Below, in pieces: positions 341 through 62,335 of a stretch of DNA of 64,000 nucleotides (the stretch's first letter is position 1; every line of letters starts with the position of its first letter). The notes under the pieces were generated by a model. It was not told where the DNA came from. It saw only the letters and a program-made list of their open reading frames with translations, and did no database searches. A program made the translations under genes and the position numbers. The DNA lies in assembly GCF_006861795.1 (NCBI RefSeq), contig NZ_VDGH01000006.1, forward strand, positions 1 through 64,000. The letters are read 5' to 3'. This DNA comes from Psychrobacillus lasiicapitis (lineage in GTDB: Bacteria; Bacillota; Bacilli; Bacillales_A; Planococcaceae).

Positions 341-790
341 TAGAAAATAATAAAAACTCTATATATGTAGATAACTTATCACAAGTAATATACGTAGGTT
401 ATGTTATTTATAAAATTGAACGTAGTATAGGGACAATATGTCTTAAAGCTTGCCGAAATTGCCGTATTTGACTTCTGCTAGGAGCAGATAACAACCAAAG
501 ATATACGAGCACATGAGGCGTCTATATGAGCGCATGAAACGTCAGTATGAGCATAAACAGTTTTAAGGAGCGCAAGGCGTATGTTTAGGAGCGTATAACA
601 AAGATATACGAGCGCATGAGATACCTATATAATTTTCGCGTTCTGTTGCGAAAATCATAGTGTACACTTCATTCTATTTTCTAACACGCACTATCCCTAT
701 TATGTGTGACATTTCATGTAATGACTTTCATTTTCCACAGCGGGGTAGAAAGTATTCTTTTGCATTGCTTTCATCACCTTTGTTACTTGC
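341..790. repeat. Composite intergenic element, copy 1
   Basis: No protein gene is visible in this ~520-base gap. The left edge (CTTAGAAAATAATAA, then an AT-rich block containing AGATAACTT) resembles the left edges of the copies at 30.46 and 53.60 kb. An inner left motif TATAGGGACAATATGTC near 430 and a right motif CACTATCCCTATTATGTGTG near 693 are roughly inverted relative to each other and match the ends of the other copies. Between them sits a 21-nt-period array. The large GC-rich palindromic modules of copies 2 and 4 are absent. Boundaries are estimates made by eye. Confidence 0.5.
486..625. repeat. 21-nt-period degenerate array, GAGC word
   Basis: The word GAGC, usually within TATACGAGCGCATGAG, begins at 507, 528, 549, 568, 589 and 610. 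The spacings are 21, 21, 19, 21 and 21. Copies are strongly diverged outside the word. There is no reading frame, no constant-repeat/variable-spacer pattern like CRISPR, and no recognised protein site. The function is unknown. Confidence 0.6.
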
Positions 791-873
791 TATTAGACAA
801 ATTACGTATTAAGATGTGCATGTTGTCGTGCAGTTTTTGATAGACATAATAAGGTATAAAAGGAGGCTCTAAT

Positions 874-1551
874 ATGGTTGGAATATTAGCGGTAGATGAT
901 GATATACATACGTTAGAGTTAATTTCTATCTTTTTATCGAATACGGGATATCGGGTAGTGAAAGCTAGAAATGGAAAAGAAGGGTTAGCTTTAATCGAAA
1001 AAGAAATGCCTGACCTTGCAATAGTGGACGTGATGATGCCAGAGATGGATGGTTTGACTTTAACTAAAATTATTCGAGAGCAATATGACTTCCCTGTTTT
1101 ATTACTAACAGCAAAAGGCGGCTTAGAGGATAAAGAAAAAGGCTACTTAGCAGGATCAGATGATTATTTAGTAAAACCATTTGAACCAAAAGAATTGTTA
1201 TTCCGCATCCGTGCAATATTAAGAAGATATGATAAAACAAGTGATGCCAATATACAAGTAGGAAATATGTTGATCAATAGAAAGAGCTTCGAGCTGCAAA
1301 TAGGAGAAGAATTACTCGTTTTACCTTTAAAAGAATTTGAATTACTCTCAAAGCTTGCCTCTAAACCAAACCAAGTATTTACTCGTGATCAATTAATCGA
1401 AGCTGTTTGGGGAATCGACTTTGAAGGGGAAGAACAAACATTAAGTGTACATATCAAACGAATACGGGAACGTCTAGCTAAAACCCAATCAGGTGTACAG
1501 ATTAAAACAGTTCGGGGAATTGGATATAAATTAGAAGGAACGCATACATGA
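874..1551 (+). CDS. OmpR-family response regulator
   Basis: A 225-residue DNA-binding response regulator. The N-terminal receiver domain has the acidic pair at residues 8-10, the phospho-acceptor Asp52 in VDVMMPEMDG, and the conserved Lys in LVKPFEP. The C-terminal winged helix (about 125-222) ends with the typical TVRGIGYKLE. It overlaps the sensor kinase gene by 4 nt (ATGA), so the two are translationally coupled. The start follows AAAGGAGG with good spacing. The likely target is the adjacent MMPL exporter, whose promoter carries OmpR-type direct repeats. Which signal it answers to cannot be read from the sequence. Confidence 0.93.
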   Translation: MVGILAVDDDIHTLELISIFLSNTGYRVVKARNGKEGLALIEKEMPDLAIVDVMMPEMDGLTLTKIIREQYDFPVLLLTAKGGLEDKEKGYLAGSDDYLVKPFEPKELLFRIRAILRRYDKTSDANIQVGNMLINRKSFELQIGEELLVLPLKEFELLSKLASKPNQVFTRDQLIEAVWGIDFEGEEQTLSVHIKRIRERLAKTQSGVQIKTVRGIGYKLEGTHT

Positions 1552-2915
1552 AAACTTTATATAGCAAATTTGTCTGGATGACACTCCTTATTATGTTTGC
1601 CAGTGGGACAATTGGTTTTATGATTGTTAATACCTTTTATCATCAAAATTTAAAAGAGAAAAATGATGAAAAGAACGTCGAAGTAGCCAGTTCCATAGTA
1701 GGGCTTATCGAATCATCAAACCTAGACAGCATAACCCCGCTTCTACAGACAATAGGAGATGCGGGGTACCAAATATATGTCGTAAATGAAGATGGCTTAG
1801 AACAGTTCTATGGCGGCGATTTTAGGGTTCGTGAATTGCCTGATGCTATTGTAAATAACGTTTTACATGGCGAGGTATATCATGGGATGCGAGAGTTTCC
1901 GAAAGAAACGTTTATAACTGGATACTTTTCAAATGAATTAACCAATACGGTTGGGGTTCCATTCACGTACGATCATAAAAAGTATGCACTATTTCAAAGA
2001 CCCAATATAAAATTTCTATTCAATGAAATCCATTTACTATTAGGGGGTCTTGCTGGTGCAATGATCATCATTAGTATTATTGCGATGCTGATCGTTGCTA
2101 AGCGGATGATTGATCCGCTCACTAAGCTTACCGTTGCAACTAATAAAATTGCAAACGAAGACTTTCAAGTGCCGATTCTAGTAAATCAACGAGACGAAAT
2201 TGGTCAATTGGCGGATAGTTTTAGGAATATGGTAAAGCAATTGGAAGCCAGTGACCGTTATAAAAAAGAGTTTATTGCTCGAGTATCTCATGATTTTCAA
2301 ACACCACTATTAAATATACAAGGATATGCTACTTTACTTGAAAATGGAGAGTTAAATGGAAATTACGCAGAAATCATTCGAAAAGAGGCTATGCGTCTAT
2401 CAGGTGTAATGAAGCAATTATTATTGCTCACTTCATTCGATCAAGCAAATACTCGAACAAAAAAAGAACCATATCGACTGGATGAGCAACTAAAACAGAT
2501 TGTTATGAAATTTAGATGGTTATTAGACGAAAAAAACATTTCCATCCAATTGCAATTGAAAAAAGTAGAGGTGCTGGGGGATAAAGAGATGTTAGAGTAC
2601 GCTTGGGAAAATCTTATTTCTAATGCAATCAAATATAATTATTCTCCGGGAGAGATACAAATAGCGATGTCCGAAACTTCGGAGTATGTGCAAGTCATCA
2701 TACAGGATAGTGGTATTGGAAACAAAAATACAGACTATGGACAATGGACAGAACGATTTTATCGAGAGGATCAGGCAAGATCAACACAAGTAGAGGGAAG
2801 CGGGTTAGGTCTTGCTATTGTAAAGGAAGTCATACAATCGCACCATGGTATTCTTGCATTTGAAAATGTGGAACCTCATGGAACAAAGGTCAGTATCCAA
2901 CTAAAGAAGATGTAA
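1548..2915 (+). CDS. Sensor histidine kinase (HAMP, HisKA, HATPase)
   Basis: A 455-residue membrane kinase paired with the preceding regulator. Membrane segment 1 is at about residues 9-28, followed by an extracellular sensor domain of ~130 residues. Segment 2 is at about 163-184, then HAMP. The phospho-acceptor box reads VSHDFQTPLLNIQGYA. The ATP-binding domain shows an N box (ENLISNAIKYN), G1 (DSGIG) and G2 (GSGLGLAI). The SHDFQTPL variant of the H box is frequent in Bacilli kinases associated with transport genes. It phosphorylates the OmpR-type partner; the stimulus is unknown. The extracellular domain shows no family I can name. Confidence 0.92.
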   Translation: MKTLYSKFVWMTLLIMFASGTIGFMIVNTFYHQNLKEKNDEKNVEVASSIVGLIESSNLDSITPLLQTIGDAGYQIYVVNEDGLEQFYGGDFRVRELPDAIVNNVLHGEVYHGMREFPKETFITGYFSNELTNTVGVPFTYDHKKYALFQRPNIKFLFNEIHLLLGGLAGAMIIISIIAMLIVAKRMIDPLTKLTVATNKIANEDFQVPILVNQRDEIGQLADSFRNMVKQLEASDRYKKEFIARVSHDFQTPLLNIQGYATLLENGELNGNYAEIIRKEAMRLSGVMKQLLLLTSFDQANTRTKKEPYRLDEQLKQIVMKFRWLLDEKNISIQLQLKKVEVLGDKEMLEYAWENLISNAIKYNYSPGEIQIAMSETSEYVQVIIQDSGIGNKNTDYGQWTERFYREDQARSTQVEGSGLGLAIVKEVIQSHHGILAFENVEPHGTKVSIQLKKM

Positions 2916-2921
2916 TCATCC

Positions 2922-2954
2922 GTTCATCTTCTGTTCACTTTCGACTTGTATAGT
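2922..2954 (+). promoter_or_regulatory. Candidate response-regulator site and promoter for MMPL gene
   Basis: Two direct repeats in exact 11-bp tandem register, GTTCATCTTCT (2922-2932) and GTTCACTTTCG (2933-2943), sit just upstream of a -10-like TATAGT (2949-2954). No good -35 is present. This layout is typical of OmpR-class activators, which bind tandem half-sites spaced one helical turn apart. The kinase-to-MMPL gap is only 74 nt, so this would give the exporter its own inducible promoter. Inferred, not proven. Confidence 0.5.
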
Positions 2955-2989
2955 TACCCCTGTAAGGAAATCTTAAAGGGGGTAGCAAA

Positions 2990-4954
2990 ATGAAAAACAA
3001 GCGTACTTGGCTTATAACATTAACGAGTTGGTTAGTGATCGTAGGATTACTTTCTTTTCTTGCACCATCCAGTAAAGAAGTTGCAAGTACATCCAAAAAT
3101 GCAGGTCTACCAGAAACAGCTTTATCCATTCAAGCTGATAAAATAGTAAAAGAAAATTTCTCTAGTAGTGAGGGAATACCTCTTTTAATAGTTTTTGAAA
3201 AAGATAAGGGTGCTACAGATGAGGAAATACAAAGCATTCTCACGTTAATGGAAGAAAATTATCCTGGTATACCGAAGTTTTCTCAAATACCTATGGAGCA
3301 TCGTGCTTCATTTGTTTCTGAGGATAAAAAAACATTCTTTATCCCTTTAATTTTGGAAGGGCAATTAGAAAGTAAAGAGATACACGCACAAGTGAAAGAA
3401 ATTAAAAAGAATGTATCCAACATTATCCCGGCAGGTTTTACTATTTATTATACGGGGCCAGCTGGTATAGCAAGTGATACAATTGAGCTGTTTTCACAGG
3501 CTGATATAGTTTTACTTTTAGCAACAGTAGGGATTATTTTTATCCTGTTAATTATTATTTATCGTTCGTTTATCCTTGCAATCATTCCACTGATCGGAGC
3601 TGGAATCGTGTACGGGGTAGTGGATAGATTGATTGGTCTAACTGGTAAATTCACATCCATTACAATTGAAAACCAAGCTCTATCCATTATGATGATTTTA
3701 TTGTTTGCGGTCATTACCGATTATTCGCTGCTTTTGTATGCTCGTTATAAAGAAGAGCAGGATATGAAAATAGCACTTGCTAAAACCCGAGAAACTGTTC
3801 TATTTAGTGGTGGTACAATTTTAGCAGGAGTGGCAACACTTGCATTTGCGATATATGAGCCGTATCGTAATTTCGCTCCGGTATTTGCGATTGCGGTCAT
3901 AATAATGTTGGTCGCAGGGCTTACTTTATTGCCGGCTTTATTTGCAGTTGTAAAAACACCAAAAAAGAAAGAAAAAACAACGAGAATATGGACAAATGTA
4001 GGAAAAGTAAGTACGAAAAAACCATGGAAAGTAGCAATTCCGATTCTCCTTCTACTTGGTATTGGTACATGGCATGCAACAACAATCGTCTATTCATATG
4101 ACTTGTTGGCATCTTTTCCAGAAGAGTTATCTTCGAGAGAAGGTTTTACAAGGCTAGGAAAGGCATTTTCAGAAGGTGAAATAGCACCAACGACCATTCT
4201 AGTTAAATCAAAAGACGAGAAAGTAATAGCGGGTATTCAAGAGAAGTTAGAAGAGAGACCACTTGTAAGTCAATTGCGGCCATCATCTTCAGAAAGTGAT
4301 AAGTACACACAGTTTTCCATTATATTAAATGCAAATCCTTATAGCAAAGCAGCTTTGAATGAAGTGGAAACGATTAGAGATGAACTAAAAGACCAACATG
4401 TTTTAGTAAGTGGAGAGACAGTGAAACAAGTGGATATCCGTAAGATTAATAATCGAGATACATTACTCGTAATGGGATTAATGACAGTATTGATTGGATT
4501 AATGCTTGCATTCCAAACGAGATCGATTCGAGCATCGTTGTTGATGATGTTTTCTATTTTATTGTCATTTGGAGCTGCTTTAGGTTTCTCTACTTGGATT
4601 TTCGATATGTTCTTCGGGTATACGTCTTTTAGTTATCGAATTCCCCTTTACACATTTGTATTTTTAGTAGCACTTGGTGTGGACTATTCGATTATGTTAA
4701 TGAGTAGGTTGAAAGAAGAAAGAAAACAGTATGGCGAACTAGAAGCAATTGCGAAGGCGGTTGAAAAAACAGGCGGGGTTATTTCATCAGCAGGATTAAT
4801 ACTTGCGGCTACATTTGCTGTTTTAATATCACAACCAGTTATGGAGCTTAAACTATTTGGTTTTGCTGTTGCAGTTGGTGTGTTATTAGATACGTTTATC
4901 GTTCGACCATTATTATTACCAGCGTTATTAACGATTACAAAGAGGGGGAAATAA
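2990..4954 (+). CDS. MMPL/RND-family exporter (YdfJ-like)
   Basis: A 654-residue polytopic membrane protein with the MMPL layout. There is a first membrane helix at the N-terminus, a large extracytoplasmic loop, five or six clustered helices ending in LLPALFAVV, then a second loop and a second helix cluster ending LLLPALLTI. The signature ITDYSLLLYARYKEE and its repeat GVDYSIMLMSRLKEE mark the two proton-relay repeats. Length is close to B. subtilis YdfJ. Start: ATG after AAAGGGGG. Substrates of this class are usually lipids or hydrophobic antimicrobials; none can be assigned. The two-component genes immediately upstream probably control it. Confidence 0.9.
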   Translation: MKNKRTWLITLTSWLVIVGLLSFLAPSSKEVASTSKNAGLPETALSIQADKIVKENFSSSEGIPLLIVFEKDKGATDEEIQSILTLMEENYPGIPKFSQIPMEHRASFVSEDKKTFFIPLILEGQLESKEIHAQVKEIKKNVSNIIPAGFTIYYTGPAGIASDTIELFSQADIVLLLATVGIIFILLIIIYRSFILAIIPLIGAGIVYGVVDRLIGLTGKFTSITIENQALSIMMILLFAVITDYSLLLYARYKEEQDMKIALAKTRETVLFSGGTILAGVATLAFAIYEPYRNFAPVFAIAVIIMLVAGLTLLPALFAVVKTPKKKEKTTRIWTNVGKVSTKKPWKVAIPILLLLGIGTWHATTIVYSYDLLASFPEELSSREGFTRLGKAFSEGEIAPTTILVKSKDEKVIAGIQEKLEERPLVSQLRPSSSESDKYTQFSIILNANPYSKAALNEVETIRDELKDQHVLVSGETVKQVDIRKINNRDTLLVMGLMTVLIGLMLAFQTRSIRASLLMMFSILLSFGAALGFSTWIFDMFFGYTSFSYRIPLYTFVFLVALGVDYSIMLMSRLKEERKQYGELEAIAKAVEKTGGVISSAGLILAATFAVLISQPVMELKLFGFAVAVGVLLDTFIVRPLLLPALLTITKRGK

Positions 4955-4956
4955 AG

Positions 4957-5358
4957 ATGCAAGAAAAGTGGAGTTTACGACTAATACGTGCAGGAGCATT
5001 ATTTGGATTACTGGGAGCTTATCTAGGTTCTCATATGGCAGGGGCAGGGTCTTATGCGTTACGACCAATTCATGCACATATTTTACTAGTAGGATGGTTG
5101 TCGTTATTTGTATATGGTTTGTTTTATAAATTGTATAAAATTAAATCTCCTAAACTTGTGGCTGTTCATGGTTGGACTGCAATCATAGGAGCAGTTGGAC
5201 TAACATTAGGTATGTATTTACAGTTCATACAGCCATTTAATATCGATAAGAATTTTGCGCTTATTGCATATATAGTAGGTGGCACGATATTATTAATCAG
5301 TTTTGCGATATTTGTTTTAGTAACTTTCAGAGTAGAAAAAGGTAGAAGTGCAGTGTGA
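4957..5358 (+). CDS. Four-helix membrane protein, oxidase-subunit-I-like
   Basis: 133 residues forming about four membrane helices. It starts 2 nt after the MMPL stop codon and is therefore co-transcribed. The segment RPIHAHILLVGWLSLF contains paired histidines in a membrane context, resembling a heme-ligand helix of heme-copper oxidase subunit I. A third His lies in VAVHGWTAI. Short proteins of this kind are seen in Bacilli, but I know of no assigned function. It could bind heme or simply be a structural homologue. A role with the MMPL exporter is inferred only from position. Confidence 0.75.
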   Translation: MQEKWSLRLIRAGALFGLLGAYLGSHMAGAGSYALRPIHAHILLVGWLSLFVYGLFYKLYKIKSPKLVAVHGWTAIIGAVGLTLGMYLQFIQPFNIDKNFALIAYIVGGTILLISFAIFVLVTFRVEKGRSAV

Positions 5359-5377
5359 CCTGCGCTTCTATTTTTTT
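5343..5377 (+). terminator. Terminator of the RR-HK-MMPL operon
   Basis: TAGAAGTGCAG pairs with CTGCGCTTCTA across a 6-nt loop, followed by seven T. The left arm overlaps the last codons of the small membrane protein. Confidence 0.88.
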
Positions 5378-5421
5378 ATTAAAAACTTAATAGAGCTTTC
5401 TATTCTTTACTCTCCTTCTGA

Positions 5422-5450
5422 CCTTTGTTATATTGTATATATAACAAAGG
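5422..5450. promoter_or_regulatory. Perfect 12-bp inverted repeat upstream of lipoprotein hydrolase
   Basis: CCTTTGTTATAT (5422-5433) is the exact reverse complement of ATATAACAAAGG (5439-5450), with a 5-nt centre. It ends next to the Shine-Dalgarno (GAGGGG) of the hydrolase gene and contains -10-like TATATT and TATATA sequences. It could be a repressor operator or a leader hairpin affecting translation. There is no T tract, so it is not an intrinsic terminator. Confidence 0.55.
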
Positions 5451-5463
5451 CAGAGGGGTTTGT

Positions 5464-6756
5464 ATGAGGAAATTAGCCATTGTTTTTTCTTTAGTAGCAA
5501 TGGTCTTTTTGTTACTTACTGCATGTAGTAAGGAAAAAGAGGAGGCACAAGAGATGAGTTCATTAGAAAGTATAGAAGGTGTATGGGAAGGTTCCATTCA
5601 AATTCCTGATCAACCACTACCAATTATAGTCGAATTTGAAGCCGACAAAGGGATGATTAGTATTCCCGTACAAGGTCTAAATGATTATCCATTAACAAAT
5701 GTAACATTAAATAAGTCTGATTTATTGTTTGATATGAACATCCAAGGACAAAAGTTAACGTTTGATGGTAAAGTCGAACAAGAAAAGATTACGGGGATCT
5801 TTACACAGCAAGGGCAGACCTTTCCTTTTGAATTGAGGGAGGGAAGTAAAGAAGAGGAAGTGGAAGAAGATCGTTTAGTAAAAGTGAAAGTAGAAGGTGG
5901 AACGATGTCTGGCCAACTAGAAGTTCCTAAAGGGGAAGGACCTTTTTCTCTAATGGTCATTATTGCTGGTTCTGGTCCTACTGATCGAAACGGAAACTCC
6001 ATTGCATTACCAGGAAAAAACAATAGCTTGAAAATGCTTGCAGAGGATTTAGCGAAAGAAGGCGTGGCAACTATTCGCTACGATAAGCGAGGAGTTGGGA
6101 AAAATACGAGTTTAGCGGGCAAGGAAGAGGATTTGCGATTCGATCAATACATTGATGATGCTGCTGCATGGGTTCGTTTTGCGAAGGAAGATGCACGCTT
6201 TTCTCATGTAGGAATAATTGGTCATAGTGAAGGCTCTTTAATTGGAATGGTAGCTAGCCAAAAAGCTGATGCGGATGCGTTCATTTCCATTGCTGGTGCT
6301 GGGAGACCTATCGATAAGGTGCTTCTAGAACAACTTCAAGCACAGCTGCCAGCAAACCTATTGAAAGAATCCAATGATATTCTAGAAAAATTAAAGCAAG
6401 GTGAGCAAGTGAAAACAGTGAGCCCGGAATTACAAAGTGTATTTCGTCCATCGGTTCAACCATATATGATATCGTGGCTGCAATATGATCCTGCTGTACA
6501 GCTTCAAAAGTTAAACAAACCGATCCTTATAGTGAATGGTAGTACAGATATACAAGTTCCAGTAAAAGACGCGGAACTTTTACATGAAGCAAAGAAAGAT
6601 TCGGATTTGCTTATTGTAGATAAGATGAATCATGTATTGAAAGAAGCACCTGCAGATCGAGAAGGAAATACCGCTATCTATTCTAATCCCGATCTTCCAT
6701 TAGCGAAAGGTTTAATAGATGGTATAGTCCATTTCTTGCAGGAAGATGTAAAATAA
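5464..6756 (+). CDS. Lipoprotein alpha/beta hydrolase
   Basis: 430 residues. I chose the ATG at 5464 because it follows GAGGGG by 6 nt and opens with a lipoprotein signal peptide (MRKLAIVF then lipobox LLTAC). An upstream in-frame ATG at 5425 lies inside the promoter/inverted repeat. After an N-terminal ~110-residue beta-rich region comes an alpha/beta hydrolase core: the oxyanion region IIAGSGPTDRNG, nucleophile elbow GHSEGS, acid NGSTDIQVP and catalytic His in MNHVLKE. All three triad residues are present, so an anchored extracytoplasmic esterase or peptidase is likely. The substrate is unknown. Confidence 0.88.
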   Translation: MRKLAIVFSLVAMVFLLLTACSKEKEEAQEMSSLESIEGVWEGSIQIPDQPLPIIVEFEADKGMISIPVQGLNDYPLTNVTLNKSDLLFDMNIQGQKLTFDGKVEQEKITGIFTQQGQTFPFELREGSKEEEVEEDRLVKVKVEGGTMSGQLEVPKGEGPFSLMVIIAGSGPTDRNGNSIALPGKNNSLKMLAEDLAKEGVATIRYDKRGVGKNTSLAGKEEDLRFDQYIDDAAAWVRFAKEDARFSHVGIIGHSEGSLIGMVASQKADADAFISIAGAGRPIDKVLLEQLQAQLPANLLKESNDILEKLKQGEQVKTVSPELQSVFRPSVQPYMISWLQYDPAVQLQKLNKPILIVNGSTDIQVPVKDAELLHEAKKDSDLLIVDKMNHVLKEAPADREGNTAIYSNPDLPLAKGLIDGIVHFLQEDVK

Positions 6757-6773
6757 GTGGAGAGTTGAATATA

Positions 6774-6806
6774 AAATGCTGAACTTTTAGAAGTTCAGCA
6801 TTTTTG
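6774..6806 (+). terminator. Intrinsic terminator after lipoprotein hydrolase
   Basis: The ATGCTGAACTT / AAGTTCAGCAT stem with a short loop is followed by TTTTTG. The next gene begins 17 nt downstream. Confidence 0.9.
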
Positions 6807-6822
6807 TGTAGGGGGAAGCAGG

Positions 6823-30458: not shown

Positions 30459-30520
30459 ATTAGTTAGGAAATAATAAGCTCTATGGCTTGCCGATCAGTA
30501 TAGGGAAACTACTTCGCATA

Positions 30521-30691
30521 AAGAAATTTTATTAGGTAACCGCTAGGATTTTCGCTTCAGGAGGACGCTTTCCGCGGGGCGGGCGGTGAGCCTCCTCGGT
30601 CGCTGTCGCTCCACTGCGGGGTCTCACCTGTCCCGCTTGATTCCCGCAGGAGTCGCCTCCTTCCGCTTCAATCAATGGAGACTTCTTGCTA
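30521..30691. repeat. GC-rich palindromic module I (copy 2)
   Basis: 171 bases identical to 53716-53886, although flanking parts of the same element have diverged. Within it, GGAGGACGCTTTCCGCGGGG and CCCGCAGGAGTCGCCTCC are mutually complementary in blocks, with GGTGAG/CTCACC nested inside. A long imperfect hairpin is therefore expected on either strand. I recognise this sequence type as a widespread dispersed repeat in Bacillaceae genomes; its role is unknown. Confidence 0.85.
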
Positions 30692-30810
30692 ATTTAGCTA
30701 GGCAGTTATCAGAGCTATAAATGGATTCTGTTTCACTGGTTATTTATGATCGATTTACTAAAGAAATCATCCACAGTTTTCGACCATGCAATTCCAATAA
30801 GTGGCCAAGT

Positions 30811-30925
30811 GCGACCAAACAGTTGTCGAAAGCAGCTAGTTGTAGTCTGAAAGCAACCAAACGAATGTTAAGAGCAACTAGTTGCATTCTAACAGCAACC
30901 TAATTAACCTTGAGAGCAACCAATT
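30811..30925. repeat. 21-nt-period degenerate array, GCAACCAA word
   Basis: The units begin at 30811, 30832, 30853, 30874, 30895 and 30916, exactly 21 nt apart. Unit starts are GCGACCAA, GCAGCTAG, GCAACCAA, GCAACTAG, GCAACCTA and GCAACCAA. The remaining 13 positions vary but usually end in a purine run (GAAA, AAGA, GAGA). An overlapping 60-codon frame (30721-30903) simply reads the 7-codon period and is not taken as a gene. Confidence 0.85.
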
Positions 30926-31183
30926 TTCCTAAAACAAGTTAACTGGGATTGAGAAGGCAGTAATAATAGGGCATTAATTAGGATTACTTTTCAAAAAGCT
31001 TCCGCTTGCTAGGCTTTGTCGTGCTCGTCCTGAGTTTTGTCATGTTCAAGTTTGACTTTGTCGCGTTCATAGCATGTTATGTAGTGTTACACCATTTATG
31101 GTATTAAATAGTTGGATAACCTCTGAAGAAGTTTGATTTGTTAAACAGTAACGCCAGTTAGATAGCGTTATCTTTAATGGATT

Positions 31184-31314
31184 GTAGCGGAGGGGCGGCG
31201 ACTCCTACGGGATGAGTGAGTAGATGAGACATCGCAGGCGAACGCGCTAGCGTCGGCGATGGCTCATCGCTCACCCCGTGGAAAGCGTCCGCCCTGCAGC
31301 GGAAATCTTAGCGG
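31184..31314. repeat. GC-rich palindromic module II (copy 2)
   Basis: The outer arms (GTAGCGGAGGGGCGGCGACTC and GGAAAGCGTCCGCCC..GCGGA) pair, and the outer parts match 54271-54396. The inner part here, GATGAGTGAG ... CTCATCGCTCACC, is a different hairpin from that of the 54-kb copy. Confidence 0.75.
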
Positions 31315-31562
31315 AATCTTCATTCCATTCCCTACCGCACAGTTTCCCCATTATGTGCGACATCCTAATATTATTGCTTATGTTCATTTGTCCTATCAGG
31401 CAGACATAGGCGCTTTCGCTTTTATTCTTACTTAAGGGATTTTCACTAGTGTCTTGCACCAGTAATAATGTCTTTTGTTTTCAATAATTTAAAGGGAAAC
31501 TGCTTACATATATTGAATAATAGTAAGGAATTCGTTTTTAAAAATGGAATGGGGGAACTTAC

Positions 31563-36692: not shown

Positions 36693-36935
36693 TGCTTTAG
36701 GCAATTGGGATAATATATCTTAAGGAAGCGCTATTAGCTTTAGCTTGATTGTCCGTTTTCGAAGAAGATCGCCCACCTTTGGTGAGAGATTGTCCAACAA
36801 TTAGAAGAGATCGTCCAAGTTACAATTAAGCGGCGTTGAAGCTCTGCTCTCCCTCTGAGGCAAAAATCTCAGCGGATACTTTATTCAACGTACCATGACA
36901 CATTATTCCCATTATGTACGTAGCACCGCCTAACA
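36693..36935. repeat. Composite intergenic element, copy 3 (short)
   Basis: A non-coding gap of ~360 bases. The left edge TTTAGGCAATTGGG and GGGATAATATATCTTAAG resemble copy 1 (GGGACAATATGTCTTAA). The right part AAATCTCAGCGGA ... CATTATTCCCATTATGTACG matches the right end of copy 2 (AAATCTTAGCGGA ... TTTCCCCATTATGTGCG). Between them lies a 21-nt-period array. Module I and most of module II are missing. Confidence 0.5.
36747..36818. repeat. 21-nt-period degenerate array, GATYGTCC word
   Basis: GATTGTCC (36747), GATCGCCC (36767), GATTGTCC (36788) and GATCGTCC (36809): spacings 20, 21 and 21. Each word except the first is preceded by a purine run (GAAGAA, GGTGAGA, AGAAGA). Confidence 0.75.
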
Positions 36936-42456: not shown

Positions 42457-42612
42457 AACGCTCCGATTTCTACCGGAGCGTTGACTAGGTATATGTAAAT
42501 ATGAAAAAAGGATTGAATCCTTCCTCCATCTTACAATTAACTCGTAGTCAAGCCCTTTACGGTGGCTTGGTAGAAACTTTTGGGCCATATCCCCAACATT
42601 ATACGACATAAT
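42457..42612 (-). promoter_or_regulatory. Guanine-class purine riboswitch with terminator
   Basis: On the minus strand the aptamer (42536-42612) shows CGTATAATG, GGATATGGCCC, AGTTTCTACC and GACTACGA, the conserved core of purine riboswitches. The base that sets specificity (position 74 in xpt numbering) is C in GACTACG, so guanine or hypoxanthine is the ligand. P1 can extend with AATTA/TAATT. The expression platform is a perfect terminator hairpin CGCTCCG...CGGAGCG plus eight T (42457-42483). Purine excess would shut the nucleoside operon off. Confidence 0.95.
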
Positions 42613-42628
42613 TCGACATTGTTTTTTT

Positions 42629-43780: not shown

Positions 43781-43952
43781 AAAAACCTCTCATAAATGAG
43801 AGGTTCATTAGCATTTTGAAAATACGCAGAAGTCCTCTCTCATTTTTCAAAACGATATCGTTTTGCAGGATTTAGCACCTTTCCATACATAAACATATGG
43901 TTGGTTGCCGAGCTTCAACGGGCCAGTCCCTCTGCTACTCTTCATGAGAGAT
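43781..43952 (-). promoter_or_regulatory. SAM-I (S-box) riboswitch of metQ
   Basis: On the minus strand the aptamer (43833-43952) contains CTCTCATGAAGAGTAGCAGA, GGGACTGGCCCG, TGAAGCTCGGCAACC and GGTGCTAAATCCTGC, the S-box core in correct order. P1 closes with ATGAGAGAGG. The terminator AACCTCTCAT/ATGAGAGGTT with a T run is at 43781-43805 and uses the same GAGAG sequence family, allowing the usual switch. SAM binding terminates metQ transcription. Confidence 0.96.
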
Positions 43953-50121: not shown

Positions 50122-50135
50122 AAAGATGGATAAGG

Positions 50136-50190
50136 GCAACCAAATAGGCGTAAAAGCAACCAAATTGTGCTCAGGAGCAACTAATTCCAA
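50136..50190. repeat. 21-nt-period short array, GCAAC word
   Basis: GCAACCAAAT (50136), GCAACCAAAT (50156) and GCAACTAATT (50177): spacings 20 and 21. It uses the same word as the array at 30.8 kb but stands outside any composite element, in the 3' UTR between the GNAT gene and its terminator. Confidence 0.7.
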
Positions 50191-53604: not shown

Positions 53605-53715
53605 TCGCTGCTTAGGAAACATAAATTTCAATATATATGGATAACTATTTACATGAAAAATAAGTAAGTTAAGCCAATTCTTATAATCGAGCGCAGTTTA
53701 GGGAAACTGCGCAGT

Positions 53716-53886
53716 AAGAAATTTTATTAGGTAACCGCTAGGATTTTCGCTTCAGGAGGACGCTTTCCGCGGGGCGGGCGGTGAGCCTCCTCGGTCGCTG
53801 TCGCTCCACTGCGGGGTCTCACCTGTCCCGCTTGATTCCCGCAGGAGTCGCCTCCTTCCGCTTCAATCAATGGAGACTTCTTGCTA
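53716..53886. repeat. GC-rich palindromic module I (copy 4)
   Basis: 171 bases identical to 30521-30691, 23 kb away, while the neighbouring sequence of the element differs at many positions. Confidence 0.85.
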
Positions 53887-54005
53887 TTTAGCTCGGCAGT
53901 TATCAGAGCTATAAATGGATTCTGATTCACTGGTTATTTATGATCGACTTACTAAAGAAAATCAACCACAGTTTTTGACCATGCAAATCCAATAAGTGAC
54001 TATGG

Positions 54006-54060
54006 GCGACCAAACAGTTGTCGAAAGTAACCAGTTGTAGTCTGAGAGGAACCAATTTTC
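54006..54060. repeat. 21-nt-period array, copy-4 version
   Basis: GCGACCAA (54006), GTAACCAG (54027) and GGAACCAA (54048), exactly 21 nt apart. Compared with copy 2, three internal units are missing, i.e. a deletion of a multiple of the unit length. Confidence 0.75.
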
Positions 54061-54270
54061 CTAAAACAAGTTAACTCGAATTGAGACGGCAATAATAGAG
54101 CATTAACTAGGATTTTTTTCTTAAAATTTTCCACTTGCTCGGCTTGTCGCGTTCCCAGTGTGTATTGTAGCGTTGTACCATTTATTGGCGTTTAATAGCT
54201 AGAAAACTTTTAAAGAAGTTTCATTTGTTAAACAGTGACGCCTATTAGATAGCGTTATCCATCATGGATT

Positions 54271-54396
54271 GTAGCGGAAGGGCGTCGACTCCAGCCGGAA
54301 AAGCTTGAGGTGAAGACCCTGGACTGAGCGTAGCGAAGGAAGCGGCTGAAGCCAAGCCGGCGGAAAGCGTACGTCCTGCAGCGGAAATCTTAGCGG
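54271..54396. repeat. GC-rich palindromic module II (copy 4)
   Basis: The outer arms match 31184-31314, but the inner part is a different sequence (GACCCTGGACTGAGCGTAGC ... GCGGCTGAAGC). Confidence 0.72.
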
Positions 54397-54691
54397 ACTC
54401 TTCCTTCAATTCACTACCGCGCAGTTTCCTTATTATGTGTGACATCCCACTAACACTAATTATTTCTATTTACTATTGGGGCAGAGATAGGTGCTTGCAC
54501 ATTTGCTTTTTAAAGGCAAATGAACAGTTTGCTAGATTTAGTTGTAAAACCCTTCTTTCAGTAAAAAGTATGAGGTGCACTCAAGACGTATGACTGAATG
54601 CAAAATGAGAAATTTGAATTATAGTGAGAATAATAAGAATTCTAGCGAAGAGAACTTAGGATCCGGGTGAACCTCGCGTCGGAAGGAATGC

Positions 54692-55951: not shown

Positions 55952-55975
55952 ATACGCCATCGGAATGTGTATAAT
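55948..55975 (+). promoter_or_regulatory. SigA promoter of guanidine exporter operon
   Basis: TTGAAT (55948-55953), 16 nt, TATAAT (55970-55975). It overlaps the stop codon of the MFS gene and starts transcription just before the guanidine aptamer. Confidence 0.7.
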
Positions 55976-55998
55976 GTAAATTAATTGCATACGTAAAA

Positions 55999-56123
55999 AG
56001 TTTTCTAGGGTTCCGCAACGAGTAAGTTGGTCCGTGACCGAGAGAAAACGCTCAGCTTATGCTGTGTCACGGAAGGATAAAAGCCTGGGAGAAACTGTTT
56101 TTACAGTTCTCCTAGGCTTTTTT
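55999..56123 (+). promoter_or_regulatory. Guanidine-I (ykkC) riboswitch
   Basis: The core blocks are in order: TTTTCTAGGGTTCCG, GGTCCGTGACCGAGAGAAAAC, GTCACGGAAGGATAAAAGCC and TGGGAGA. AAAAGCCTGGGAGAACTG-type sequence then forms a terminator with CAGTTCTCCTAGGCTTTTTT (56079-56123). Guanidinium binding prevents termination and turns on the SMR pair downstream. This is the canonical ykkC-ykkD arrangement. Confidence 0.96.
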
Positions 56124-56147
56124 ATTTTATAATTTGGAGGGATTTTT

Positions 56148-56803: not shown

Positions 56804-56820
56804 GATTAATGATCAAATTC

Positions 56821-56860
56821 AAAGATAATCTGCTGATAAAAAGCGGATTATCTTATTTTT
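56821..56860 (+). terminator. Terminator of ykkCD
   Basis: AGATAATC pairs with GGATTATCT; TTATTTTTTT follows. The 3' part overlaps the end of a minus-strand small ORF. Confidence 0.8.
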
Positions 56861-57017
56861 TTCTATTCATCAAGTAAAATGCGGTGCCAGCAATAAACAA
56901 AGCAGTACTTAACGCCATTGCTATGCCATTCCATTCTCCGTTGAATAAGGTAATGTTAGTTAGCGTAATAAACTGCATTAAGATAATGATGATGTATAAT
57001 CCCGTTATTGTGTTTAT
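56853..57017 (-). CDS. 54-residue two-helix membrane protein, apparent ATA start
   Basis: On the minus strand GAAGGAG lies 8 nt before ATA (57017-57015), which would start a 54-residue protein: NTITGLYIIIILMQFITLTN (helix 1), FNGEWNGIAMALSTALFIAG (helix 2), end YLMNRKK. The only ATG in frame (56978) would cut away helix 1. The ATA overlaps the previous gene's stop (ATAA), the same geometry as a normal ATGA coupling. It may be a gene whose ATG has mutated, or one with a rare initiation codon. Confidence 0.45.
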   Translation of the reverse strand: MNTITGLYIIIILMQFITLTNITLFNGEWNGIAMALSTALFIAGTAFYLMNRKK

Positions 57018-57484
57018 AAAAGTTTCTCCTTCGAAATATATTTACTTCTTCTTTCTAATAATTGATAGTCTTTCGTTTTAGAGATTGGGATGTCATGTTT
57101 GTGAGCGAATGTAAGTAATTCATGAAAAATTCTATTAGATGAAAAAAGAACAAGACGTAGATTTAACCCCTTTTTTGTATGAATGAGAGCCCCTGGCGTA
57201 GCCCAACTATAACGTTTGAAAGCAATTTTCTTCAAGTGAGAAGGATGGAACACTCTTTTATAAATACAAATAGACATAAAGGAAACTTCATACATCAAAT
57301 ACTCATCAAGAAAGATAAATGTATAATTAATAGAAAATGTAATAATAATGAAGAGACCAAGTAAAATAGAAAAGTAGAATAAGCCACCATAAGAATGAGT
57401 TGCGTAGCTATTTGCTATTTGAATAACGGGTATGAACAATAATGTACCTAAATATCCTTTTTGGGATTTAGCATGGAAAGTTAT
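57014..57484 (-). CDS. 156-residue membrane protein, apparent ATA start
   Basis: On the minus strand GAGGTG lies 7 nt before ATA (57484-57482), followed by TFHAKSQKGYLGTLLFIPVI. Starting instead at TTG 57439 would remove half of the first membrane helix and leaves no ribosome site. Two membrane helices are followed by a ~90-residue basic soluble part (ICIYKRVFHPSHLKKIAFKRYSW) reminiscent of membrane-bound PH-like proteins. No family firmly recognised. A frameshifted ORF precedes it and an ATA-start ORF follows. Confidence 0.5.
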   Translation of the reverse strand: MTFHAKSQKGYLGTLLFIPVIQIANSYATHSYGGLFYFSILLGLFIIITFSINYTFIFLDEYLMYEVSFMSICIYKRVFHPSHLKKIAFKRYSWATPGALIHTKKGLNLRLVLFSSNRIFHELLTFAHKHDIPISKTKDYQLLERRSKYISKEKLL

Positions 57485-57497
57485 TTGATTTCACCTC

Positions 57498-57790
57498 TTA
57501 TAGTAAATAGTCTTTAATCAATAAAAGGAAAGTCATGTAAATGATGAAAAGACCTAGAGACAGGTCGATAGAAAAGTTTAGTGGATCTTGATTCTTGCAT
57601 TCATATGCATTAATTTACGGAATGAGTAGCTATCAAAAGTAATACTAGGCTAGTAGTAAAGGATGAAATGAAAATAGGGATGAATAATAAAATGACGACT
57701 ATTATTTTCAAAACAGGGTGGTTATCTATTTGAACGAACAAACGATCAACATTTTTTACAATGATGTAGTGGATATATATGTTAATAGTA
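57498..57790 (-). pseudogene. Frameshifted small membrane-protein gene
   Basis: On the minus strand one frame gives VDRLFVQIDNHPVLKIIVVI and a helix rich in Leu/Ile up to IATHSVN and a stop (57610). A second frame, open from just before that point, gives INAYECKNQDPLNFSIDLSL, GLFIIYMTFLLLIKDYLL and a stop at 57498. The two parts together look like one ~100-residue three-helix protein broken by a frameshift near 57610. No start codon with ribosome site is visible. The broken ORF's stop overlaps the next gene's ribosome site. Confidence 0.55.
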
Positions 57791-57925
57791 TATCATTTAT
57801 GGAAACCAATACTGTAATATGTTTCTGAAAATTCCTTCCGTCTTCTTATGTATATTTTTCCTGAAACCGTTCAATCTTCCATCCGTATAATAGTTAAGTA
57901 GAAAAAAAGAAAGAGAGATGATTGT

Positions 57926-59590
57926 ATGACGTTTGTTTTTATTATTTCAGCAGTTGCAGCAATTATTACTGCATTATTAGTCGTACCACTGACAGCTAAG
58001 AGAAAAGACATGATGTCTTCTTTAATTGGTTTAGCCGTTTTAACATTTATCGTATTAGCGATTATCTATTATTTAACAAATATAGACCGTAATTGGATAG
58101 CTTTATGGCCGTTGCTTGTGCTAGCCACTTTAGCTGGAACTATTTTGTCAAAAGGAGCGGAACAAAAAGCAAAAGGCGTTCTTTTTTTAGGGAGTTTAGT
58201 GCTAGCCATCTATATGCTGTCTGCGTTTCTTTGGAATGCGGATGAAAAATTTGAAGTGGCTAAAATGGATGGGCAAGTAGAAATTGAAGCGTTTGATGAA
58301 ACGAAAACACCTGCTAGTGTGCCGCCTCAATTTGCACGGAATAAGATGAAAAAAGCATTTGGGCAAGTTCCTAATACTAGCTATTATGAATTAGGCAATT
58401 TACAAATTCAAAAAGTGAATGAAGAATACGTTTATATTGCACCAGTAGAGTTTTCAGGGTTTTTCAAATGGTGGAATGGTGATGTGACACCGGGTTATTT
58501 TACGATGAGTGCGACAGATTCATCAGATAATCCTGAATTTATCGAAGCGGATATGGCATACACACCATCTTCCTATTTCCATAAAAACTTGGAAAGGCAT
58601 ATGCGTATGAAGCATCCAAATAAAATATTTTACGGGGATGTGCAATTGGAAATAGATGAAGAGGGAAAACCATATTATATTCGTTCTTATGGGAAATTTA
58701 TCTCCGCTCGTAACGGTTTTGACGTAGAGGGAATCGTTGCTGTCGACCCCGCTACAGGTCAAACAGATGCTTATGCGCTAGCAGATGTCCCGGCATTTAT
58801 AGATGGAGCGGTATCACCGGAAACGGTAAGTTTGCAAAATAGCTATTATGGGAAATATATACATGGTTTTATGAATAGCTTATTCGGTAAGAAAGATGTG
58901 AAGCTACCTTCCGATGAAGGAACAGAAGCAAATGTTAGTCCGATTTTCGGGGAAGATGGTCAAATGTATTATTTCACGGACTTTACAAGTCCAAAAGAAG
59001 GCGTTGATTCGATGCTCGGTTATTCATTAACAGATGGTCGAACTGGTAAAGCTACTTATTATACCGGCAATCTAGAAGATTCGTATATGGATTCCCAAGG
59101 GGCATTACAAATTATTGAAAAGAAATTTATCGAGAAAAAATGGCAAGGCGAAATGCCAGTGCTGTACAATTTTTATGGAGAGGCTAGCTGGTTAACGCCT
59201 GTACTTGATTCTAATGGGTTTTTACAAAACTACTTCATCGTATCAGCGGCAAATCCAGAAATATCTGTATACGGAAACACACCGAACGAAGCATTGAAAC
59301 TATATAAAACGGCTATTCAACGCGGAGGAAGTTCAGTGGACGGCAGCTCAAAAGCGGAAGAAAAATCGGTAAATGGTACAGTTGCGCGCGTGTTCAAGGA
59401 ACGTATTGGGGACTTCACGCAAGTTTCGTTCTTGCTTACAAATAAAGAAAATTATATAGTATCCTCCGAAATAGCTCCATTTGCGGTTTATATGGAAGAA
59501 GGAGATATTGTAGAAGTAACATATCTGGACACTGGAGAACTATTCTTACCTGTTAAAGAGGTAACGATTAGAGGACTTGAGAAAGAGTAA
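57926..59590 (+). CDS. Large membrane-anchored protein of unknown function
   Basis: 554 residues: three or four N-terminal membrane helices (to residue ~105), then a ~440-residue predominantly extracytoplasmic region. Noticeable blocks are SYYELGNLQIQKVNEEYVYIAPVEFSGF, PGYFTMSATDSS and DGQMYYFTDFTSPKEGVDSMLGYSL. The C-terminal ~70 residues look like a small beta-barrel (VNGTVARVFKERIGDFTQVSF). No catalytic motif is visible. I do not recognise a named family. ATG after GAGAGATGA; a strong terminator follows, so it is monocistronic. Confidence 0.8.
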   Translation: MTFVFIISAVAAIITALLVVPLTAKRKDMMSSLIGLAVLTFIVLAIIYYLTNIDRNWIALWPLLVLATLAGTILSKGAEQKAKGVLFLGSLVLAIYMLSAFLWNADEKFEVAKMDGQVEIEAFDETKTPASVPPQFARNKMKKAFGQVPNTSYYELGNLQIQKVNEEYVYIAPVEFSGFFKWWNGDVTPGYFTMSATDSSDNPEFIEADMAYTPSSYFHKNLERHMRMKHPNKIFYGDVQLEIDEEGKPYYIRSYGKFISARNGFDVEGIVAVDPATGQTDAYALADVPAFIDGAVSPETVSLQNSYYGKYIHGFMNSLFGKKDVKLPSDEGTEANVSPIFGEDGQMYYFTDFTSPKEGVDSMLGYSLTDGRTGKATYYTGNLEDSYMDSQGALQIIEKKFIEKKWQGEMPVLYNFYGEASWLTPVLDSNGFLQNYFIVSAANPEISVYGNTPNEALKLYKTAIQRGGSSVDGSSKAEEKSVNGTVARVFKERIGDFTQVSFLLTNKENYIVSSEIAPFAVYMEEGDIVEVTYLDTGELFLPVKEVTIRGLEKE

Positions 59591-59595
59591 ATTAG

Positions 59596-59638
59596 AATGT
59601 CGACAAACCCTAATTCATTGGGATTGTCGACATTTTTT
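59596..59638 (+). terminator. Intrinsic terminator
   Basis: AATGTCGACA pairs with TGTCGACATT over an ~19-nt loop, followed by TTTTTT. Confidence 0.88.
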
Positions 59639-59702
59639 AGTGTAAGTATTAAGATGTTTTCATTTTCAAGCCTTTAACAGGCACAACGTTTCGACAACTT
59701 GG

Positions 59703-59881
59703 TTGAAAATCACTGCTTAGATGGTATAATAAAAACATAGCAAGGATATATTAAAAAGACTGCTCGGTGCGGTCAACACCAAACAGTCATATAATAAAAT
59801 AGCATCGCTTCAAAGGCGATCAGCAAACAGAAAGAGTAAATCACCCTATTGCTTGTGGCTCAGGGGCGGTTTACTTTTTTT
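59703..59881 (+). ncRNA. Putative antisense antitoxin RNA
   Basis: A promoter TTGAAA (59703), 16 nt, TATAAT (59725-59730, with TGG extension) reads toward the toxin gene. A terminator-like hairpin (GTAAATCACCC with GGGGCGGTTTAC, then TTTTTTT) ends at ~59881, inside the last toxin codons. The predicted ~140-nt RNA has no plausible ORF with ribosome site. It would base-pair with the 3' part of the toxin mRNA, as RatA does with txpA. Prediction only. Confidence 0.6.
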
Positions 59882-59957
59882 CTTTCGAAAAAGTAAGAAT
59901 GGAAACAATTAAGCCGGCGAACGCAACAGCGAACATTAAGGCTTCGAAAGTTGACAT
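59871..59957 (-). CDS. Type I toxin, putative holin-like peptide (TxpA/BsrG-like)
   Basis: A 28-residue peptide, MSTFEALMFAVAFAGLIVSI then LTFSKEKK: one membrane helix and a basic tail, the pattern of the holin-like toxin family (Hol_Tox, related to BsrG/TxpA). A perfect AGGAGGTG lies 7 nt before the ATG. The leader is long (~95 nt) from a TGG-TATAAT promoter at 60058-60063, and a terminator-like ATCGC/GCGAT hairpin lies near 59810. It would insert in the membrane when its antisense RNA is lost. Confidence 0.8.
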   Translation of the reverse strand: MSTFEALMFAVAFAGLIVSILTFSKEKK

Positions 59958-60133
59958 TGGCAACACCTCCTCTCCCTATTCTTGTAAATAACAAAAATAG
60001 TAGATAGGAAAAAAGAGATGCTGACCGCCCATGAGCACCCTATTCTATTACTTTTCTATTATACCATGTATCCTTATTTTATTTGTTAGAATTTTAAAAA
60101 TATAAAAACGAGCAAGAAAACAGGAGTGATCCC

Positions 60134-60973
60134 TTGAAAATCCATTACTTAACAATAGGCGAAGTGGCGAAGCTCAGTAATATATCTATTCAAACTTTAC
60201 GTTTTTATGATCGTATCGATTTATTTAAACCAATAAAAATTGACCCGAAAAATCAGTATAGGTATTACCAAAATACCCAATTATATTATTTAGACATTAT
60301 TAAATCGCTAAAATATCTTGGTCTATCCTTAGAAGAAGTTAAATCTGTACTAACATTGAGTCCCGAGGAACTAGTGAATTATTTGGCAGATCAAGAAAAT
60401 AAAATCGAAGAGGAATTTCGAAGGCTGATCGAAACAAAAGAAGTGTTAAAACGAAAGAAGGAACAAATACAATCATTTGTAGTGGAATCCGATAAAATGC
60501 ATGTCTGTGTAAAGGAAATACCTGCCCAAAAAATAGTAAAGATAAAAACATCCGATATAAGTATAAATGACATCCCAAACAGAGAATATGGACTTATTAG
60601 TAAGGTGCTAGAAGATATGGGAAGTGTATTCGACACGCTATATGGTGGTGCATTTGCTTTGGGTAAATATGAATCGCTGGAAGATATCCATTACGACTAC
60701 TTATTTACATATGCTGTCACAGACAAGGAAATCCATATTAACTCGGAAGATGTAGAAATAAGCACTATACCAGCAGGACAATATCTCAGTATTACTTTTG
60801 CATTTACAGATGACGCATACGAAATTTGTTATCAAAAATTAATGGACTATATGGAGCAGCATCAGATAAAAATAGAACCAATCGTATATGACGTTTGGAT
60901 GCCAATAAATTTCACTGCTTCGAATAAAGATGAATTTTTAGTGGAATTAAAAATACAAATTCAAGCTACTTGA
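60134..60973 (+). CDS. MerR-family regulator with effector-binding domain (BltR/BmrR-like)
   Basis: 279 residues, TTG start after AGGAGTGAT. N-terminal HTH: YLTIGEVAKLSNISIQTLRFYDRIDLF, then the coiled-coil dimerisation helix. The C-terminal ~150 residues form a GyrI-like drug-binding domain (VCVKEIPAQKIVKIKTSD ... IHINSEDVEISTIPAGQYLSI). Such proteins twist poorly spaced promoters into an active form when bound to hydrophobic cations. The MFS drug pump gene directly downstream is the probable target. Confidence 0.92.
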   Translation: MKIHYLTIGEVAKLSNISIQTLRFYDRIDLFKPIKIDPKNQYRYYQNTQLYYLDIIKSLKYLGLSLEEVKSVLTLSPEELVNYLADQENKIEEEFRRLIETKEVLKRKKEQIQSFVVESDKMHVCVKEIPAQKIVKIKTSDISINDIPNREYGLISKVLEDMGSVFDTLYGGAFALGKYESLEDIHYDYLFTYAVTDKEIHINSEDVEISTIPAGQYLSITFAFTDDAYEICYQKLMDYMEQHQIKIEPIVYDVWMPINFTASNKDEFLVELKIQIQAT

Positions 60974-61001
60974 CCCTATAGTAACTATAGGGTTTATTTT
61001 T
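60973..61001 (+). terminator. Terminator between merR and MFS genes
   Basis: ACCCTATA pairs with TATAGGGT over GTAAC, then TTATTTTT. It separates regulator and pump, so the pump probably has its own or a read-through promoter. Confidence 0.78.
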
Positions 61002-61043
61002 GTAGGTAGAAAGTATTTTTATTAGATTGTTAGGAGCTTGAAA

Positions 61044-62222
61044 ATGGTTATGCAAAAAAGTAGTTTAAATAAGACAATATATTTAGTGCTTATTAATTTG
61101 TTTATTGTGTTTTTAGGGATAGGATTAGTGATTCCTGTAATGCCTACACTCATGAGGGAGATGCATTTAGAAGGGTCTACAATGGGTTACTTAGTGGCAG
61201 CATTTGCGTTCACCCAACTATTAGTGTCTCCTATAGCAGGAAAATGGGTCGATACATTTGGTCGCAAGAAAATGATTGTGATCGGGATGCTTCTTTTTGC
61301 ACTATCCGAGATGCTTTTCGGATTTGGGAAAGATGTAACGGTATTGTATATATCGAGAATGTTGGGCGGTGTTAGTGCTGCTTTCATGATGCCGGCAGTG
61401 ACCGCTTTTGTTGCTGATATTACATCCTTAAAAGAACGTCCTAAAGCAATGGGATATGTTGCAGCGGCCATTAGCACAGGTTTTATCATTGGACCTGGAA
61501 TTGGTGGTTTTTTAGCTGAACATGGTACGAGACTTCCTTTCTTTTTCGCAGCAGCTTTAGGATTTTTAGGATCTGTTTTTTCGTTAGTAATATTGAAAGA
61601 ACCTAAACGACCAGAAATAGAAGAGAAGAAAACAGAAAAGCAAGTAGCAAAATCAGGATTCCGCAAATTACTGGAGCCGATTTATCTTATTCCGATGCTG
61701 ATCATTCTTGTATCTAGCTTTGGTCTTGCTGCTTTTGAAACAGTCTATTCTCTGTTCGTCGATCATAAATTTGCCTTTACGCCAAAAGATATTGCTTTAA
61801 TCATTACGGTGAGTGGTATTCTTGGTGTTATTGCGCAAGTTTTATCGTTTGACCGGATCGTAGATAAAATAGGAGAGATTAGACTAATCCAGATTTGTAT
61901 GGGTGTATCAGCAATATTCATATTTGCAATGATTAAAGTGTCGTCATACTGGTCTATATTAGTGGTGACTTTTGTTATTTTCCTAATGTTTGATTTGATA
62001 CGTCCTGCATTGACAACGTATTTGTCTAAAATAGCTGGCGATGCACAAGGTTTCGTAGGAGGATTAAATTCTACATTTACGAGTATAGGAAATATTATAG
62101 GCCCTGGAATTGCCGGTATACTCTTTGACGTAAATATTGATTATCCGTACGTATTATCGATGTATGTGCTTGCACTTAGCTTTGTTATTTCGTTGTTTTG
62201 GAAAGAGCGACGAGCTAACTAA
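61044..62222 (+). CDS. Multidrug MFS transporter (Bmr/Blt/NorA-like)
   Basis: 392 residues from ATG 61044 (TTAGGAG, 7 nt); a TTG at 61038 is too close to the ribosome site. Twelve helices. Motif A GKWVDTFGRKKMIVIG, motif C region GFIIGPGIGGFLAEHG, opening VFLGIGLVIPVMPTLM. These match the Bmr/Blt/NorA group that expels quinolones and hydrophobic cations. The upstream MerR-type regulator fits the known Bmr-BmrR and Blt-BltR logic. Confidence 0.92.
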   Translation: MVMQKSSLNKTIYLVLINLFIVFLGIGLVIPVMPTLMREMHLEGSTMGYLVAAFAFTQLLVSPIAGKWVDTFGRKKMIVIGMLLFALSEMLFGFGKDVTVLYISRMLGGVSAAFMMPAVTAFVADITSLKERPKAMGYVAAAISTGFIIGPGIGGFLAEHGTRLPFFFAAALGFLGSVFSLVILKEPKRPEIEEKKTEKQVAKSGFRKLLEPIYLIPMLIILVSSFGLAAFETVYSLFVDHKFAFTPKDIALIITVSGILGVIAQVLSFDRIVDKIGEIRLIQICMGVSAIFIFAMIKVSSYWSILVVTFVIFLMFDLIRPALTTYLSKIAGDAQGFVGGLNSTFTSIGNIIGPGIAGILFDVNIDYPYVLSMYVLALSFVISLFWKERRAN

Positions 62223-62225
62223 AAT

Positions 62226-62264
62226 AAAAGAGCTATCCACTTGAAAAATAGTGGATAGCTTTTT
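62226..62264 (+). terminator. Terminator of MFS gene
   Basis: AAAAGAGCTATCCAC pairs with GTGGATAGCTTTTT; symmetrical enough to serve the convergent hydrolase gene too. Confidence 0.9.
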
Positions 62265-62281
62265 GTTTTAGGAGGAAAAGT

Positions 62282-62335
62282 ATCTTGCGATTCGGAGTGT
62301 GCATCTTGCGATTCGGAGTGTGCATCTTGCGATTC
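62282..62335. repeat. 21-nt tandem repeat, ATCTTGCGATTCGG word
   Basis: A 21-nt unit starts at 62282, 62303 and 62324 (2.6 copies), identical within the shown units. It again follows a terminator and a TTTTAGGAGGAAAAG stretch resembling the left edge of the composite elements. It lies between convergent genes. Confidence 0.9.

Follow-up and report, generated by a model that had tools for sequence, protein, structure and literature searches.

The stretch of DNA analysed in this work (hereafter the window; 64,000 nucleotides) opens with the end of the 23S rRNA followed by the 5S rRNA (positions 1-292), and carries a purine riboswitch at 42525-42626, a SAM riboswitch at 43837-43950 and a guanidine-I riboswitch at 55994-56093, all three reaching the Rfam gathering scores. 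Its noncoding DNA holds short arrays of repeated words and two copies of a longer repeated element, located as follows.

502 to 628, forward strand: array of the word GAGCRYAWRA, six units with steps of 21, 21, 19, 21 and 21 nt, past the end of the rRNA operon
30511 to 31400, forward strand: noncoding repeated element of ~0.9 kb whose ends form long imperfect inverted repeats (query 17-187 against 662-849), hosting two arrays
30809 to 30923, forward strand: array of the word RAGCRACYAA (family 1), six units, every step 21 nt, within the ~0.9-kb element
31015 to 31080, forward strand: array of the word TTTGTCGYGTTC (family 3), period 21, within the same copy of the element
36747 to 36818, forward strand: array of the word GATYGTCC, four units with steps of 20, 21 and 21 nt
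50134 to 50184, forward strand: family-1 array, three units with steps of 20 and 21 nt
53706 to 54471, forward strand: second copy of the ~0.9-kb element
54004 to 54055, forward strand: family-1 array, three units with steps of 21 and 21 nt, in the second copy of the element
62282 to 62335, forward strand: array of 2.6 identical copies of the 21-nt ATCTTGCGATTCGGAGTGTGC, past a terminator-like hairpin

All six loci at which the initial annotation had described arrays do hold them, stepping mostly by 21 nt and occasionally by 19-20 (in the 486-625 locus, GAGC starts at 507, 528, 549, 568, 589 and 610), and the TTTGTCGYGTTC array at 31015-31080 is a seventh one in the window, absent from those six loci. 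The claim that the words vary from locus to locus stands for three of the loci, but those at 30811, 50136 and 54006 share GCRACCAA (RAGCAACCAA), and the arrays at 30811 and 54006 are not independent, because both sit in copies of one ~0.9-kb element. This element has 150 matching pieces in the genome to which the window belongs (G000), some of them being end parts alone. In the 62282 array the whole units are identical, spacers included. A 74-nt piece is also seen after four of the array loci (639-712, 31290-31363, 36851-36924 and 54372-54445), with 62-77% identity to the first copy.

The period was assessed on 34 intergenic stretches of the window, with 30 shuffles and lags from 8 to 45. Exact runs of at least 7 number 34 at lag 21, where shuffles average 1.6 (sd 1.6, maximum 6), and 16 at lag 42, against 1.1, whilst none of the other 36 lags exceeds 5 runs. 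A scan blind to the words found 13 noncoding arrays in the 314-kb contig, ten of period 21 and one each of 42, 22 and 29, and no favoured period among arrays in the called genes of that contig. In relatives, word-blind counts put 16 of 39 noncoding clusters of the genus sample at period 21 (seven of the 16 belong to a single ~1-kb array of G017) and three at 42, 11 of 19 clusters of the family sample at 21, and, in the class sample, one of seven at 21 and one at 42, both in one stretch. The stretches of G006 and G008, picked for known matches, were left out of these counts. After dinucleotide shuffling, no triple appeared at lag 21. No 21-nt array was found in the stretches of G002, G014 and G018 (40, 4 and 40 kb), nor in 50 kb of E. 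coli K-12. Of the two outcomes named at the outset as refuting the observation, a lack of lag-21 excess over shuffled intergenic DNA and the reduction of all words to one sequence, neither was encountered in the window, in the 314-kb contig or in stretches of relatives.

Several families of unlike sequence share this period within one genome. Pairs of RAGCAACCAA (family 1) occur 84 times in G000, those of TTTAGTTGGAA (family 2) 78 times and those of TTTGTCGYGTTC (family 3) 15 times, with a control of 0 in each case; arrays of GAGCRYAWRA, GATYGTCC and GTTGCGCA were also met by the word-blind scan of the contig, and ATCTTGCGATTC was found again at two more places (contig C12). The possibility raised at the outset, that all words would align to a single sequence, is not borne out by the 33 array words retained from 35 hand-picked ones (two were discarded for low conservation within their arrays): compared pairwise, they match on average at 5.15 of 11 positions, as against 4.87 (sd of means 0.05) after shuffling of letters, with a few genuine clusters, since five of the 528 pairs match at nine or more positions where shuffling gives a mean of 0.3.

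The anatomy of the unit is best seen in a cleaned family-1 set of 104 arrays chosen for having at least three units, of which 29 are from G000, 64 from Psychrobacillus-titled records and 11 from Bacillus sp. FJAT-22090. As many as 340 of their 411 steps are of 21 nt, 55 of 20, 10 of 19 and six of 22, so that 395 are of 20 or 21 nt, the size to which all 35 family-2 steps conform (34 of them at 21), as do, at 21, 10 of the 13 noncoding arrays of the contig. Distances between family-1 words tell the same: 277 at 21, 38 at 20, 13 at 42 and two at 30-33; all 16 distances of 12 nt are in non-Psychrobacillus records, at least five of them in one unrelated record. The units of families 1 and 2 are direct and non-palindromic, and next to the conserved core lie positions that carry almost no information, 13-18 in family 1 (0.01-0.13 bits in the 104 arrays) and 16-21 in family 2 (0.06-0.31 bits). 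The purine run noted ahead of the word holds in family 1. Four or more units are present in 92 of the 104 arrays, in a set preselected for at least three, and the window arrays at 50134, 54004 and 62282 have 3, 3 and 2.6. Some open frame is found in 77 of 112 family-1 arrays and in 71 of 112 shuffles, i.e., the arrays are noncoding, and a coding role was rejected on this ground. (These 112 arrays are 117 minus five containing N, and include some of the 13 arrays from unrelated genomes that the 104-array set excludes.) Family-1 arrays are frequently preceded by a near-palindromic leader resembling CCAATAAATGG and followed by a near-palindromic trailer resembling CAAGTTTACTTG (e.g., 30795-30807 and 30933-30945 of the window; L402, L407), and family-3 arrays have the same leader.

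Among the matches listed for the family-1 pattern in named genomes, 53 of 80 are in Psychrobacillus, and 12 of the 19 genomes examined in the genus contain pairs of TTTAGTTGGAA, though words differ between species. Other words of the same period were met in stretches of the genus and family: CGCAACACTT in G001, GAGCAAGTAA in G008, ATAATCGCCA in G027 and TTCGCTCAACG in G035. With regard to a mobile phage origin, viral_contigs yielded two stretches for the family-1 pair pattern and three for that of family 2. Some period-21 arrays are long, from ~0.6 to more than 1.1 kb (L298 11256-11879 and 18853-20000, in G027; L080 13058-14119, in G017), and two of these stay open as apparent ORFs, at risk of being wrongly annotated as proteins built of 7-residue repeats.

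Words even differ at one and the same locus. At 36747, upstream of a GntR-type gene, G016 also has GATYGTCC, G001 and G012 have RATTGTMGTAAA, family 1 occupies the place in G009 and G011, and no array was seen in the remaining 13 of 19 genomes. At contig position 177217 a family-3 array in G000 corresponds to a family-1 array in G016, and the word at 117176 takes a different form in G016, TTAGTTGTAA, with different spacers. The number of units changes as well. The 50136 locus has three units in G000 and five in G016, with none seen in the other eight of ten orthologous loci. The 62282 locus has 2.6 units in G000, one in G016, two in G009 (with a near-identical spacer) and about three degenerate ones in G011; of the 15 genomes compared, the remaining 11 showed no unit there. 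The array at 118358-118455 is wholly lost in G016 and present in G009. The initial observation of a constant period with changing words is therefore confirmed both within the genome and between species, and for this reason slippage from one ancestor is insufficient as an explanation.

Cores and spacers do not always evolve alike. In two family-2 arrays compared between G000 and G009, the 9-nt core is changed at one of 90 positions and the spacers at 14 of 80 (Fisher p = 1.6e-4; for the whole 11-nt word, 6 of 110, p = 0.015), and the arrays are gap-free, whilst their flanks differ at 97 of 494 sites and have 15 gapped positions. Six aligned array stretches of G000 and its close relative G016, on the other hand, show no constraint on the words (20 of 269 changed, with 14 of 195 in spacers and 152 of 2279 in flanks). 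Judging from these alignments, therefore, there is genuine evidence for selection in two arrays, but it does not extend to arrays in general.

The interpretation we prefer, holding it with about as much doubt as confidence, is that the arrays belong to a described class of bacterial tandem repeats of constant size (20-21 nt) and variable sequence, and act as rows of putative protein sites two helical turns apart. Each array would offer successive sites to a DNA-binding protein of defined sequence specificity, whose copies would stack along the same face of the helix every two turns (2 x 10.5 bp), and unlike words would correspond to unlike binders or binder specificities. A fixed step, a kept core and a free spacer fit such stacking, and a protein that reads spacing, one of the possibilities initially put forward, continues to be the best reading, given the 340 steps of 21 and the core kept while the spacer drifts in the two orthologous TTTAGTTGGAA arrays. 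What the sequences themselves show is a 21-nt unit step, a conserved core with about six near-informationless positions per unit, several families per genome, a noncoding position, entire units gained or lost, one array gained or lost as a whole, and unlike words at one locus across species. Also in favour of the reading, tests of RNA folding, curvature and coding (detailed below and above) do not account for the step, and by crude ORF calls the genes flanking 31 family-1 arrays are convergent in 10 cases, co-directional in 19 and divergent in two. More tentatively, the bound row might serve as a roadblock, an insulator or a nucleoid anchor close to the ends of transcription units, and arrays might multiply through recombination at their words and by being carried within the ~0.9-kb element. 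Against the reading as rows of sites, a multitude of unrelated words would call for many different binders, three-turn steps of 31-32 nt would be equally in phase yet are nearly absent, the six G000/G016 stretches appear free of word constraint, G016 differs in word form and spacers at 117176, and single units show a slight excess of pairing. In addition, 15 arrays of one contig are no closer to predicted terminators than random noncoding places (three of 15 within 20 nt, vs 19%); a rule tying arrays to terminators thus agrees with the family-2 count (seven of 11 within 15 nt) but not with this contig sample, and eight of 26 family-1 arrays are within 30 nt of a predicted terminator (contig control 21%).

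Somewhat doubtful, but deserving consideration, is the interpretation of the arrays as selfish or merely tolerated dispersed minisatellites that travel with mobile noncoding elements and through unequal exchange, and have no function for the host. Two window arrays do lie inside an element with many matching pieces in the genome, whole units differ between G000 and G016 at 50136 (3 vs 5) and 62282 (2.6 vs 1), the array at 118358-118455 is gone from G016, word constraint is absent between these two genomes, and at least 12 of the 83 family-1 pair strings listed for G000 have, by their spacers, an evident partner among the 91 listed for G016. What such repeats leave unexplained is why unrelated words should have a common period, and the contrast between core and spacer in family 2.

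Action at the level of RNA, with the arrays as transcribed repeats (e.g., protein sponges or 3′ end elements), seems quite unlikely. RNA is among the proposals made for similar repeats (PMC8161180), seven of 11 family-2 arrays lie within 15 nt past a predicted intrinsic terminator (a count with no matched control), and in seven of 11 the gene just upstream is on the strand of the array; family 1, however, has no preference for gene strand (9 +/+ vs 10 -/-). Nor does folding support the RNA structure unit once envisaged, as 40 of the 112 family-1 arrays fold like their tail-swapped controls (z -0.01±0.15 and -0.08±0.16 for the two strands), although single units (340 distinct) are slightly more stable than tail swaps (-1.738 vs -1.593 kcal/mol, sd 0.035). 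That weak excess of pairing within units speaks for RNA, and two column pairs are above expectation, 14-19 (z 4.7) and 13-18 (z 3.1), but do not nest into a helix. The spacing constraint matches B-DNA (21.0) better than A-form RNA (22).

That arrays are built by copying in fixed steps of 21 nt, irrespective of the local word, has a similarly small probability. Such copying would account for one period common to unrelated words and for the identical whole units at 62282, as expected of young duplications; G009, however, has the same spacer there and G016 one unit, so that loss in G016 fits equally well as duplication in G000. Kept cores with free spacers are left unexplained, and a general copying bias is not seen in genes, since the runs at lags 21 and 42 in called ORFs come mainly from two long, misread arrays of one other genus (G027), open by chance. 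Phased curvature, with the period alone relevant, agrees with a period of two turns but is very improbable, and was rejected for family 1, where the curvature predicted for the 112 arrays from wedge parameters is 4.6 degrees per turn, below both the column-permuted (6.9) and the shuffled (5.0) controls.

Returning to rows of protein sites two turns apart, it is tempting, albeit unlikely, to imagine that bacteria of this family keep them in set positions close to where transcription units end, so that the place and the 21-bp step would matter and the words would be swapped as a set of fast-evolving DNA-binding proteins turns over. If true, such word-swapping rows would be a bacterial counterpart of satellite turnover in which geometry is conserved.

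As for known systems, plasmid iterons are protein-bound direct repeats spanning about two helical turns, unlike which the present arrays occupy dozens of chromosomal loci and use several words. CRISPR repeats are longer and accompanied by cas genes, and the 21-nt step by itself argues against them. The STAR elements of Staphylococcus, as defined in PMC3532100, resemble the arrays in that they are direct repeats dispersed between genes, built on a short conserved word with spacers particular to each locus, and expand and contract; yet STAR has a single word, GC-rich and 14 bp long, whose copies lie 40 bp or more apart, and the arrays, with 21-nt units and many words, do not conform to its consensus T(G/A/T)TGTTG(G/T)GGCCC(C/A) and spacing. 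BIME/REP sequences, from the description in PMC2817692, are likewise extragenic, numerous and regularly spaced, and bind proteins as is proposed for the arrays, but REPs are palindromes of alternating orientation, whereas the arrays are non-palindromic and of one orientation.

The closest likeness is to the repeats of constant size (20-21 or 52 nt) and variable sequence reported in Bacillus, with several families per species (Subirana & Messeguer, IJMS 2021, PMC8161180, which cites an earlier 2020 J Bacteriol paper of the same authors). These too are noncoding units of 20-21 nt with a short conserved sequence inside and several unrelated families per genome, so that the initial opinion that no named element has this property was wrong in kind. 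That paper remarks on the two helical turns, proposes proteins polymerising on DNA or RNA, and leaves the function open; its search demands at least four repeats, which the 2.6- and 3-unit arrays found here would escape, and its available text mentions neither Psychrobacillus, Planococc-, Sporosarcina nor 'terminator'. Word replacement at the same locus and rates of core versus spacer are given here and were not met in that text. Repeats of constant size and free sequence have been in print since 2020-21, and short, well-defined cores (e.g., TAGTTGGAA every 21 bp), together with relatives having or lacking an array at one locus, make the protein hypothesis directly testable. The kind is already known, and what this work adds to it is the anatomy of a core plus a free spacer, the keeping of core and register across species in two TTTAGTTGGAA arrays, and the differences in word at one locus between species.
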